DNA of 64,000 nucleotides, taken from contig NZ_ATXK01000004.1 in assembly GCF_000421645.1 (NCBI RefSeq), positions 186,001 to 250,000 on the forward strand, read 5' to 3'. The translations under genes were made by a program, and so were the position numbers. This document shows positions 5,024 to 52,514 of the stretch, piece by piece (the stretch's first letter is position 1; each line of letters opens with the position of its first letter). The notes under the pieces are model-generated. The model had not been told where the DNA came from. It worked only from the letters and a program-made list of their open reading frames with translations, and did no database searches. The stretch comes from Aurantimonas coralicida DSM 14790 (lineage in GTDB: Bacteria; Pseudomonadota; Alphaproteobacteria; Rhizobiales; Rhizobiaceae).

Positions 5024-5399
5024 GCAGCAACTCTCTGGCTCGGGCAATGGGCGAGGAAGCCGGTCGATATCGTCGCAGCGCTTGGAAAGGCCGTGCAATA
5101 TCAGCGGGCAACTCCCTCGGGTGTCGATCCGCAGATTAATGCCGGCGGGCTTACCAATCGGTTTATGGTTGCCGGACCGTTCCCATCCCGGATCGAAATT
5201 TCTCGTACCCTGCCAAACGAAACGGGCAGGAGTGAGGTGAAATTCCCTATGGGAAGCGTGCGGCGCGTCATTCCGCTTGAATCTTATTGTGCAGTGCAAT
5301 ATCTTTGGGCGGGGCGCAGCTCAGGGCACCGGTCGGACCGGCACTTCCTGCTGAATGGACGTCCTTCCACAAACCACCACCAATCCGAGGGAAATCCAG
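5024..5399. other. Divergent intergenic region between dac and phasin genes
   Basis: 376 bases without a convincing gene. The phasin promoter and its palindrome lie at 5277-5305. Both strands have short open frames, but they are continuations of the dac frame or lack ribosome-binding sites. The dac promoter must also be here; I could not pick a convincing one. Confidence 0.6.
5277..5305 (+). promoter_or_regulatory. Phasin promoter with palindrome TGC-N3-GCA in the spacer
   Basis: TTGAAT (5277-5282), a 17-base spacer and TATCTT (5300-5305) form a good housekeeping-sigma promoter. TGCAGTGCA (5290-5298), a TGC-N3-GCA inverted repeat, lies inside the spacer, where a bound repressor would block RNA polymerase. 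Phasin genes in alphaproteobacteria are known targets of PhaR, whose operators contain such TGC-N3-GCA repeats; assignment to PhaR is inference. Confidence 0.6.
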
Positions 5400-5795
5400 A
5401 TGAACGCATATGAAGATGCCAGCAAGTTCTCCAAGGACGCGATGGACAGCGCGCTGAAGTCGGTGTCGGCCATGACCAAGGGCTTCCAGCAGGTCGCGTC
5501 GGAGACGTCCGAATTCGCCAAGCGCGCCTATGAGCAGCAGACCGAATTCATGGAGAAGCTCTTCCAGGTGCGTTCGCCGGACAAAGCCATCGCGCTGCAG
5601 AGCGAATACGCCAAGACCGCCTATCAGGGCTGGGTCAGCCAGGCGACGCGCATGGGCGAGATCTACACCGATGTCGCCAAGGAGACCTACAAGCCGTTCG
5701 AGCACTCGCTCGCGACGCTGTCGACCGCGGGCACGTCCGTGGCGACCAAGCCGGCCGCTGCCGCCAAGCAGGCCGCCGAGACCAAGGCTGCCTGA
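5400..5795 (+). CDS. Phasin family protein (PHB granule surface)
   Basis: 131 residues from ATG at 5400, with GAGGGAAA six bases upstream; the frame is open to 5355 but this start has the ribosome-binding site. The protein is almost all helix, without signal peptide, and shows the phasin_2 pattern: an N-terminal DASKFSKDAMDSALKS stretch, an EFAKRAYEQQTEFMEKLF amphipathic helix, and an Ala/Lys-rich tail like those of PHB-binding phasins. Phasins coat polyhydroxyalkanoate granules and control their size and number. The gene is monocistronic, with its own promoter and a strong terminator. Confidence 0.9.
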   Translation: MNAYEDASKFSKDAMDSALKSVSAMTKGFQQVASETSEFAKRAYEQQTEFMEKLFQVRSPDKAIALQSEYAKTAYQGWVSQATRMGEIYTDVAKETYKPFEHSLATLSTAGTSVATKPAAAAKQAAETKAA

Positions 5796-47751: not shown

Positions 47752-47797
47752 GTAGGCGCCGCTCGATATTGCACCTGCACAGTGATGGCGGGTTTGA

Positions 47798-47816
47798 CCG
47801 GCGGCAGTGCCGCCGG
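47798..47816 (+). terminator. Hairpin between ftsB and pdhA
   Basis: CCGGCGGC (47798-47805) pairs with GCCGCCGG (47809-47816) around AGT, 47 bases beyond ftsB. No T-run follows. Possible factor-assisted terminator. Confidence 0.35.
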
Positions 47817-47902
47817 ACGGTGTATTCCGACCCGAATTCGCACGCCAAACAACCGCCTGCGCGCACGAAAACGACCCATCATAGACTTAAACGCAATCTC
47901 GG

Positions 47903-47931
47903 TTGAATTTGCTGCATTGCAGCAAGTAAAC
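47903..47931 (+). promoter_or_regulatory. Palindromic operator upstream of pdhA, within a possible promoter
   Basis: TTGCTGCA (47909-47916), T, TGCAGCAA (47918-47925): a perfect 17-base inverted repeat containing CTGC-N3-GCAG. TTGAAT (47903-47908) abuts it on the left and GTAAAC (47926-47931) on the right, the exact spacing of -35 and -10 elements, although the -10 is poor. A better promoter lies downstream at 47961. Confidence 0.6.
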
Positions 47932-47960
47932 CGGAATTCGATTAAAGAGCGCGGCGTCGC

Positions 47961-47988
47961 TTGATGGGCGGTGCGGAGCATCTATACT
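47961..47988 (+). promoter_or_regulatory. Probable pdhA promoter
   Basis: TTGATG (47961-47966), 16 bases, TATACT (47983-47988). Transcription would begin near 47995, leaving a 43-base leader with GGAGG at 48028-48032 before the TTG start of pdhA. The palindrome at 47909 would then sit about 70-86 bases upstream of the start of transcription. Confidence 0.55.
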
Positions 47989-48037
47989 CGGGGTGAATTG
48001 TAGCCGCGAATTGGCGGATCAAGACCCGGAGGCAGCA

Positions 48038-49156
48038 TTGGCGGCCAGGCAGAGCAAGACACCCGCATCCAAGAAGGCCGCAGGCCCCTCGGGCGACGGC
48101 GCGGTTTCCACGGCGGATTCGTCCGCGGAGATCGTCAAGACGCTCGAGCATTTCGACGCGCCCGCGCCCGCAACCTTTTCCAAGGACGAGGAGATCCGCG
48201 CCTATCGCGATATGCTCCTCATCCGGCGCTTCGAGGAAAAGGCCGGCCAGCTTTACGGCATGGGCTTCATCGGCGGCTTCTGCCACCTCTATATCGGCCA
48301 GGAGGCGGTCGTCGTCGGAATGCAGATGGCGATGAAGGAAGGCGACGAGGTCGTCACCGGCTATCGCGACCACGGCCACATGCTGGCCACCGGCATGGAA
48401 GCGCGCGGCGTGATGGCCGAGCTCACCGGCCGCCGCTCGGGCTATTCCAAGGGCAAGGGCGGCTCGATGCACATGTTCTCGAAGGAGAAGAAGTTCTTCG
48501 GCGGGCACGGCATCGTCGGTGCGCAGGTGCCGATCGGCACCGGGCTGGCCTTCTCCAATCGCTACAAGGGCAATGATTCGATCGCGATCACCTATTTCGG
48601 TGACGGCGCGGCCAACCAGGGCCAGGTCTACGAGAGCTTCAACATGGCCTCGCTGTGGAAGCTGCCAGTCGTCTACGTGATCGAGAACAACCGCTACGCC
48701 ATGGGCACCTCGGTGAACCGGGCCTCGGCGGAGACGAATTTCGCCCATCGCGGCCTGTCGTTCAAGATTCCTGGCATCCAGGTCGACGGCATGGATGTGC
48801 GGGCGGTCAAGGCCGCCGGCGATCTGGCCGCCGAGCATTGCCGCTCGGGCGAGGGGCCGATCATCCTCGAGATGATGACCTATCGCTATCGCGGCCATTC
48901 CATGTCCGATCCGGCCAAGTATCGCAGCCGCGACGAGGTCCAGAAGATGCGGTCGGAATCCGATCCGATCGAACAGGTCAAGCGCCGGCTCATGGAAGAG
49001 CAGGGCATGTCCGAGGACGACGTCAAGGACATCGACAAGAAGGTCCGCGAGATCGTCGCCGACTCGGCCGATTTCGCCCAGAATGATCCCGAGCCGGACG
49101 TCTCCGAGCTGTGGACCGACATCTATGCGGACGTGCTTCCGCAGGCGGCCGAGTAG
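48038..49156 (+). CDS. pdhA: Pyruvate dehydrogenase E1 component, alpha subunit
   Basis: 372 residues from TTG at 48038, chosen because GGAGG stands five bases upstream; the frame opens at GTG 47993 but that would be at the start of transcription. After an Ala/Lys-rich N-terminus come [19 protein letters not shown], the thiamine diphosphate motif [13 protein letters not shown] with the later ENN, and the phosphorylation-loop-like [15 protein letters not shown]. With PdhB it decarboxylates pyruvate. First gene of pdhA-pdhB-(SRPBCC)-pdhC-(SGNH)-lpdA. Confidence 0.97.
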
Positions 49157-49167
49157 GGGAACCGACC

Positions 49168-50610
<1,443 letters not shown>

Positions 50611-51110: not shown

Positions 51111-52514
51111 ATGCCCATCAATGTGACGATGCCCGCGCTCTCGCCGACGATGGAGGAGGGCAACCTCGCCAAGTGGCTGGTGGCCGAGGGCGACACGGTT
51201 TCGGCCGGTGACATCATCGCCGAGATCGAGACCGACAAGGCGACCATGGAGGTCGAGGCCGTCGACGAGGGCAAAATTGCCAAGATCGTCGTCCCCGCCG
51301 GTACCGAAGGCGTGAAGGTCAACGCCGTCATCGCCATTCTGGCCGCCGACGGCGAGAGCGTCGAGGATGCGGCCAAGGGCGGCGGCTCGGCTGAGGGGTC
51401 GGACGACAAGGGCGGCGCGATGGTTGCCGATCCGAAGGCCGACGCTGCCGTGACCGGTTCGGAAGCCGACGCGAAGGATGCGGAAAAGCGCGGCGACAGC
51501 CGCCCAGCGGCCGATGCCAAGGGCGCGTCGTCCGGGCAGGGCGGTTCGGGCGATCGCGTCTTCGCGTCGCCGCTGGCGCGCCGGCTCGCCAAGGATGCCG
51601 GGCTCGATCTTGGCGCGGTGCAGGGCTCCGGTCCGCACGGTAGGATCGTCAAGGCCGACATCGAGAGCGCGAAGGCATCGGGCAGCGCCCGCAAGGCTGC
51701 CGATGCGCCGGCTGCCAAGAGCGAGGCCGCGCCGGCCCCGGCAGCGGCGCCTGTCGCCAAGGGCACCAGCGACGAGGCCGTTCTCAAGCTGTTCGAAGAG
51801 GGCTCCTACGAGAAGATACCGCATGACGGCATGCGCAAGACCATCGCCAAGCGCCTGGTCGAGGCCAAGTCCACGGTCCCGCATTTCTACCTGACGCTCG
51901 ACTGCGAGCTCGACGCACTCCTGGCACTGCGCAAGCAGCTCAACGAGGCGGCGCCGATGATCAAGACCGATGCGGGCGACAAGCCGGCCTACAAGCTGTC
52001 GGTCAACGACATGATCATCAAGGCGATGGCGCTGGCGCTGAAGGCGGTGCCGACGGCCAACGTGTCCTGGACCGAGTCGGCCATGCTGCAGCACAAGCAC
52101 GCCGATGTCGGCGTCGCGGTGTCGATCGAGGGCGGCCTGATCACCCCGATCATCCGGCGCGCAGAGGAGAAGACGCTCTCGGCGATCTCCAACGAGATGA
52201 AGGACCTGGCCAAGCGCGCCCGGGCCCGCAAGCTGAAGCCCGAGGAATATCAGGGCGGCACCACGGCCGTCTCCAATCTCGGCATGTTCGGCATCAAGGA
52301 CTTCGCCGCGGTGATCAATCCGCCCCATGCGACGATCCTGGCAGTCGGCGCCGGCGAGCAGCGCGCGGTGGTCAAGAACGGCGCCGTGACCGTCGCCACC
52401 ATGATGAGCGTGACCCTGTCGACCGACCACCGGGCGGTGGACGGCGCGCTGGGTGCCGAACTGGCGGTGGCGTTCAAGCAGCTGATCGAAAACCCGATGT
52501 CGATGCTGGTCTAG
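51111..52514 (+). CDS. pdhC: Dihydrolipoamide acetyltransferase (E2) of pyruvate dehydrogenase
   Basis: 467 residues from ATG at 51111 with GAGGAGA upstream. Domain order: lipoyl domain (1-80, Lys in [13 protein letters not shown]), an acidic linker, the E3/E1-binding domain (about 145-182, [15 protein letters not shown]), an Ala/Pro linker, and the acyltransferase domain from about 230 with the active-site HRAVDG (His440, Asp444). It forms the core of the complex and makes acetyl-CoA. Confidence 0.97.

Follow-up and report, generated by a model that had tools for sequence, protein, structure and literature searches.

A predicted PhaR operator flanked by paired copies of another palindrome upstream of the pyruvate dehydrogenase operon of Aurantimonas coralicida

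Introduction

Which protein reads the perfect 17-bp palindrome that precedes the pyruvate dehydrogenase (pdh) operon of Aurantimonas coralicida DSM 14790, and in which direction would it act on these genes? A preliminary description of this DNA had placed the palindrome between a -35-like and a -10-like element and had proposed PhaR, the regulator of polyhydroxybutyrate (PHB) storage, or a relative of PhaR as the protein that binds it. If true, a further branch of the Hyphomicrobiales would couple the flow of carbon from pyruvate to acetyl-CoA to the status of its storage granules, and would do so through a direct site, not indirectly. Here, we followed up this proposal in the 64-kb stretch of DNA that contains the locus (64,000 nucleotides, hereafter the window), in the rest of the genome and in related bacteria; the factor controlling pyruvate dehydrogenase in these bacteria becomes directly testable.

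Results and Discussion

The palindrome and its fit to the PhaR motif

The palindrome, TTGCTGCA-T-TGCAGCAA, with TTGAAT (47903-47908) directly before it and GTAAAC (47926-47931) directly after it, was found as first described, and its location upstream of the pdh operon was likewise borne out by the identity of the downstream genes, pdhA (TIGR03182) followed by pdhB and pdhC. The features of the locus are as follows (positions in the window).

47888 to 47906, no strand assigned: X1, weak copy of the palindrome X (see below), TAAACG-CAATCTC-GGTTGA, 9 of 12 arm positions; centre near -99, right arm overlapping TTGAAT
47909 to 47925, no strand assigned: 17-bp palindrome TTGCTGCATTGCAGCAA, the predicted PhaR operator; 21-bp motif at 47907-47927, centre near -79 from the predicted transcription start
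47927 to 47945, no strand assigned: X2, copy of X, TAAACC-GGAATTC-GATTAA, 10 of 12; centre near -60, left arm overlapping GTAAAC
47961 to 47988, forward strand: predicted core promoter TTGATG-N16-TATACT, with the predicted transcription start at about 47995-47996
48028 to 48032, forward strand: GGAGG, likely ribosome-binding site of pdhA, read from the sequence
48038 to 49156, forward strand: pdhA, encoding pyruvate dehydrogenase E1 alpha (511.5 bits to TIGR03182, whose cut-off is 393.85); its TTG start is a reading of the sequence, the mechanical open reading frame opening at 47993
49168 to 50610, forward strand: pdhB, the following operon gene, for E1 beta with a lipoyl domain, read from the translation
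51111 to 52514, forward strand: pdhC, dihydrolipoamide acetyltransferase, read from the translation

The window has 9 perfect palindromes whose arms reach 8 or more, where 40 dinucleotide shuffles gave 7.1 on average, and 2 occurrences of CTGC-N3-GCAG, where 2.21 are expected by chance. Each being near its chance level, neither palindromicity alone nor this motif alone was retained as evidence. When up to three mismatches were allowed, the 17-mer pattern had one match in the window, the exact one, and was present in 18 of 100 shuffles; two exact copies of the 17-mer occur in the whole 4.6-Mb genome, of which contig 4 carries the window.

For a more specific measure, a PhaR matrix was made from 25 of 28 Sinorhizobium meliloti sites lying on fragments bound efficiently or weakly by His6-PhaR (PMC12542648, Table 3), three of the four exoH copies being left out; this matrix favours an R-N-Y core, and its training sites had been found with such a motif. 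It gave two strong matches in the window, one at 5294 (24.8) and the other at 47917 (24.3), well ahead of the next best (11.2). Because the score of 24.3 compares with maxima of 7.3 to 16.0 in 12 shuffled windows, the site at 47909-47925 exceeds the chance level when judged by the PhaR motif, though not by its palindromicity alone. It also falls within the span of the 25 training sites (13.7-28.8), the palindrome fits the Bradyrhizobium consensus TGCRNYGCASMA on both strands (PMC6201568), and both its core, TGC-RNY-GCA, and its flanks agree with PhaR sites that were gel-shifted or footprinted. A lone high score may nevertheless arise by chance, since one reversed control (L116) scored 21.2 among the longer, 630-bp pdhA upstream regions.

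phaR and PhaR-type sites elsewhere in the genome

The genome carries one copy of phaR (G000:C2:511332), with both expected domains (PF07879 and PF05233) and a score above the cut-off of the equivalog TIGR01848; the preliminary proposal had depended on the presence of such a gene. Beside phaR, at L021:2757-5849, lies a patatin-like gene (PF01734), with a thiolase gene on one side and a short-chain reductase gene on the other.

The other strong match in the window precedes a phasin gene, and serves as an internal positive control.

5284 to 5304, no strand assigned: second PhaR-type site, TTATTGTGCAGTGCAATATCT, found with the PhaR matrix (score 24.8)
5400 to 5795, forward strand: phasin gene (PF09361), its start 106 bp past the centre of the PhaR-type site at 5294

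For the genome-wide list, 50 sites were scored, drawn from the matches listed of a broad pattern (130 forward) and of a narrow one, the latter complete with 22 sites although its end letters miss some sites, such as one at L023 (23.1). Among these matches, the best nine of the 50 scored sites (22.2-27.6) include both window sites, one located 93 bp before a second phasin gene (L191; TIGR01985, above cut-off), one before a PhaZ depolymerase gene (L020; TIGR01849) and one before a gene for a PHB-depolymerase-type esterase (L018; NF050058). Thus, the same motif stands before four PHB granule genes of this genome, namely two phasins, one PhaZ and one PHB-depolymerase-type esterase. Of the remaining four, one precedes a sox operon and another a diguanylate cyclase gene, a third is close to the start of a YceI-like gene that scored below its cut-off, and the last, at L187, has no clear target. 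The preliminary description had forecast that phaR, phasin, phaC and pdhA genes would head such a list: pdhA and the phasin genes are indeed among the best, the gap between phaR and phaA reaches just 13.1, and phaC was not located.

Three occurrences deserve a record in their own right. A perfect PhaR-type palindrome at L017:5981-5997 (G000:C6:158980-158996) lies just past the stop codon of the gene preceding soxX, upstream of the thiosulfate-oxidation operon (SoxX, SoxY, SoxA), and a tie of sulfur oxidation to PHB would be unusual. Two overlapping PhaR-type sites at L023:6036-6049 (G000:C6, near 143148), scoring 23.1 and 13.4, have a divergent set of ABC-transporter-like genes on one side and a leucine-breakdown-like acyl-CoA dehydrogenase/carboxylase operon on the other, names that were given by reading; the dehydrogenase was above no NCBIfam cut-off. 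Finally, at L022:6029 (G000:C4, near 176028), a PhaR-type site (22.2) is followed 138 bp on by a gene for a PAS-GGDEF diguanylate cyclase.

PhaR thus stands as the best candidate for the protein that binds the palindrome, given the presence of phaR, the fit to matrix and consensus, and the same motif before phasin and depolymerase genes; binding of PhaR at pdhA is likely on these sequence grounds. The promoter placement that accompanied the proposal was wrong, as detailed below.

The predicted pdhA promoter lies downstream of the palindrome

The hexamers taken for -35 and -10 elements are arms of the other palindrome, X, and GTAAAC is identical to TATAAT at 2 of 6 positions. A consensus scan of positions 47752-48040 returned a single promoter-like pair, TTGATG-N16-TATACT. 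All 12 of the closest pdhA loci (own included) share this pair and its spacing, as TTGAnn with TATACT in 11 and with TATAGT in G029. The promoter finder gave extra weight to TATACT. Its matches beyond the Aurantimonas-type loci were weaker (L051 excepted) and were not used; positions at those other loci are counted from where the protein match begins. A conserved promoter is therefore predicted about 50 bp downstream of the palindrome, which would itself be centred near -79, so that the expected mode of action moves from promoter occlusion to control from upstream.

A second palindrome is associated with pdhA

Each of the two hexamers in the preliminary description overlaps the inner arm of one copy of TTAACC-N7-GGTTAA, a palindrome that we call X, and the PhaR motif lies between the two copies. 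X2 is the sole match in the whole genome to TWAACC-N7-GGTTWA at up to one mismatch, the backward pattern having 5. Comparison of 13 Aurantimonas-type loci showed X1 and X2 (9 to 11 of 12 positions) to be always 38-39 bp apart, including the three loci (G027, G030 and Mangrovicella) in which no PhaR-like site was found; G005 also carries a third, weak one at -45. Within the genus, the internal spacing of the X1-PhaR-X2 block is constant, also in G001, G003 and G004, where the block as a whole is displaced upstream by 21 bp, or two helical turns. This shift of the block as a unit points to an upstream activating element that would be read from one face of the helix.

X was then surveyed in the pdhA upstream regions of L026-L135 and L194-L222, and occurs in most Rhizobiaceae and neighbours examined. 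At 10 or more of 12 positions it precedes pdhA in 41 of 59 genomes, against none with the reversed control and a shuffle mean of 0.35 (maximum 2). When spacers of 3 to 12 were compared over 107 pdhA upstream regions, the spacer of 7 gave at least 10 of 12 in 87 of them (24 perfect; reversed, 1), and the runner-up, the spacer of 8, gave 9 against 0 reversed.

Three identities considered for X were dropped. It is not a variant PhaR site, because it is kept at pdhA in 3 of 7 genomes without phaR (G013, a 1.1-Mb genome of the same family, G040 and G049). The CtrA box is TTAA-N7-TTAA; X, being TTAA-N11-TTAA, differs from it in spacing. As a regulon motif X fails on numbers, with 121 forward against 399 backward-pattern matches at up to one mismatch in 60 genomes, and it is thus notable for its place before pdhA and not for its number. 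To our knowledge, X is also unlike the operator of PdhR. A literature search for a pdh-specific regulator or for the X sequence yielded no paper naming one, which is not proof of absence. Overall, this palindrome, common before pdhA to most relatives examined and matched to no known protein by our searches, is apparently tied to pdhA. We regard as an even proposition that a dedicated regulator acting on X runs pdhA in the Rhizobiaceae (in the GTDB sense) and their neighbours, through a helically phased pair at -99/-60 in the Aurantimonas type, and that PhaR has repeatedly been wired in as an input of PHB status, here docking exactly between the pair.

The PhaR-type site at pdhA in relatives

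The PhaR matrix was calibrated on phasin genes. A homologue of the window phasin was found in 25 of the 36 genomes searched (own included), and all 25 upstream regions (400 bp) had a PhaR-type site of at least 17.4, the best reversed control reaching 15.6; on this ground the matrix transfers to this order. Applied to the 350-bp pdhA upstream regions of 59 genomes (60 searched, G036 having no pdhA match; own genome included), it gave (i) 17 sites of at least 13, against 0 reversed and a shuffle mean of 1.35 (maximum 4), and (ii) 6 sites of at least 20, against 0 reversed and a shuffle mean of 0.05 (maximum 1). In a set of 107 non-redundant pdhA upstream regions from 110 loci, which overlaps the former set (L026-L055 are in both), 20 reached at least 13, again with 0 reversed.

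phaR itself was found in 29 of the 36 genomes searched. A PhaR-type site of at least 13 at pdhA occurred in 10 of the 28 phaR-bearing genomes with a pdhA locus and in 0 of the 7 genomes without phaR; this co-occurrence is weak, because 8 of the 10 genomes belong to one genus.

Of the 12 closest loci considered above, 4 have a strict PhaR core, 6 a broken core and 2 (G027 and G030) no site. The strict ones are those of this genome, its near twin G006, G029 (at -77) and G034 (at -124, outside the X pair). In G001-G005 and G007 the arms are mostly kept and the central triplet is ATA, TTT or TCC, which breaks the R-N-Y core and lowers the scores to 13.1-15.6. Conservation in close relatives, on which the preliminary description had staked its proposal, is thus found for the arms, kept in all 8 genus members with at most 2 bases changed, and not for the PhaR-type core, present in the genus just here and in G006. 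The phasin sites of the same genus members retain the core, though they were chosen by a matrix that favours it. This loss of the strict core weakens the case for a long-standing control of pdhA by PhaR, not the fit of the present site; the broken-core species either have a weaker control of pdhA by PhaR or use the palindrome for another purpose. PhaR-type sites before pdhA are also seen in other families, at other positions (G050, G052, G054).

Palindrome-like sequences that resemble the PhaR box in their arms and not in their core were seen in the pdhA upstream regions of Nitratireductor (L058 and L059; TAGCTGC-ATG-GCAGCTA) and of Brucella (L125 and L128; GGCGGCATAGCAGC).

Proposed mechanism and alternatives

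The reading that we favour, with moderate confidence, is that PhaR uses the palindrome as its operator and from there, upstream, helps to set pdh transcription: PhaR would sit at about -79 between the X copies, most likely activating together with an X-binding protein, and this effect would be lost when PHB granules form. For this promoter we infer PhaR binding, its sign, the binding of a protein to X, and co-operation between PhaR and X. At low PHB, free PhaR would bind near -79, flush between the X copies at -99 and -60, and would most likely raise pdhA transcription jointly with the putative X-binding protein; as PHB granules form, PhaR would be drawn off the DNA and pdh expression would shift. 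Activation by free PhaR, lost on titration by PHB, seems likelier than repression by analogy with other rhizobia, because the site is upstream and in helical register and because the published pdh effects are falls in the absence of phaR.

The opposite sign is nonetheless conceivable, and we hold it to be unlikely without being negligible. PhaR wedged between X1 and X2 would then block an X-binding activator and lower pdhA transcription, and PHB would relieve pdh. The geometry lends itself to this, as X1 (47888-47906), the PhaR motif (47907-47927) and X2 (47927-47945) abut and their joint occupancy may be crowded, and in S. meliloti PhaR does repress phasin and depolymerase genes (PMC12542648). 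Both published pdh effects, however, run in the other direction (PMC6201568, PMC12542648), the distance between X1 and X2 is the same 38-39 bp in the 13 loci with or without a PhaR site, and the palindrome does not overlap the promoter found by the scan.

Two other readings take PhaR out of pdh control. The palindrome might be the operator of another reader of CTGC-N3-GCAG, perhaps part of the X system, the PhaR-like core here and in G006 being incidental. Such a reader would account for arms largely kept in 8 of 8 genus members around a core that varies (with ATA, TTT or TCC at its centre in 6), and for a palindrome placed, in the genus, midway between the X copies. It sits poorly with the score of 24.3, flanks included, by which the site resembles the phasin site, with the near-identical sites that precede PHB genes in the same genome, and with the PhaR-type sites found before pdhA in other families at other positions (G050, G052, G054), and we think it improbable. 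It is also conceivable that PhaR can bind without measurably affecting pdh, which would then be controlled by X alone or by neither element: X is commoner than the PhaR box at pdhA (41 against 17 of 59) and persists there in the three genomes without phaR (G013, G040, G049). To this, the retention of the palindrome arms across the genus and the dependence of pdh on PhaR in two other rhizobia (PMC12542648, PMC6201568) are opposed, and we give it very little weight.

Comparison with known systems

Activation by PhaR from between the X copies, which remains our preferred reading, has its nearest parallel in Bradyrhizobium, where PhaR at pdhA is already a published precedent. In B. diazoefficiens USDA110, pdhA expression fell from 249.67 to 111.10 RPKM without phaR, a 2.25-fold drop; PhaR-His6 bound the pdhA promoter weakly, with some shift at 110 nM; and direct positive control of pdhA by PhaR is the authors' own proposal (PMC6201568). 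Both species thus have a PhaR-type sequence at pdhA. The B. diazoefficiens site, TGCAGTGCGGCA, is imperfect and copies of X go unmentioned in the available portion of that paper (PMC6201568), whereas the present palindrome is perfect and lies between X1 and X2.

The PhaR/AniA regulon of S. meliloti is alike in its YGCRNYGCR core, in having phasin and depolymerase promoters as targets, the phasin gene being the classic PhaR target, and in the dependence of PDH proteins on PhaR (PMC12542648). In the phbC phaR mutant compared with phbC in low-phosphate medium, PdhB and PdhC changed by log2 -2.01 and -2.05, respectively, an effect absent in TY medium (log2 -0.27 and -0.16), and Table 3 of that paper lists no site at pdh (PMC12542648). 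The dependence there can thus be indirect, as there is no listed pdh site and no effect in TY; likewise, no strong PhaR site was found in the two Ensifer/Sinorhizobium pdhA upstream regions examined (L061, 8.9; L081, 2.6). More generally, PhaR is mainly seen as a repressor, and its target in P. denitrificans and R. sphaeroides is given as a "TGC-rich region" (PMC10888616); the operator CTGC-N3-GCAG, which the preliminary description ascribed to PhaR of Rhodobacter, did not turn up in the portions of the literature available. As to X, a parallel for control of pdh only, such as an X-binding protein might exert, is offered by PdhR, the GntR-family regulator of gammaproteobacteria, which in several lineages controls the pyruvate dehydrogenase operon alone (PMC5343134).
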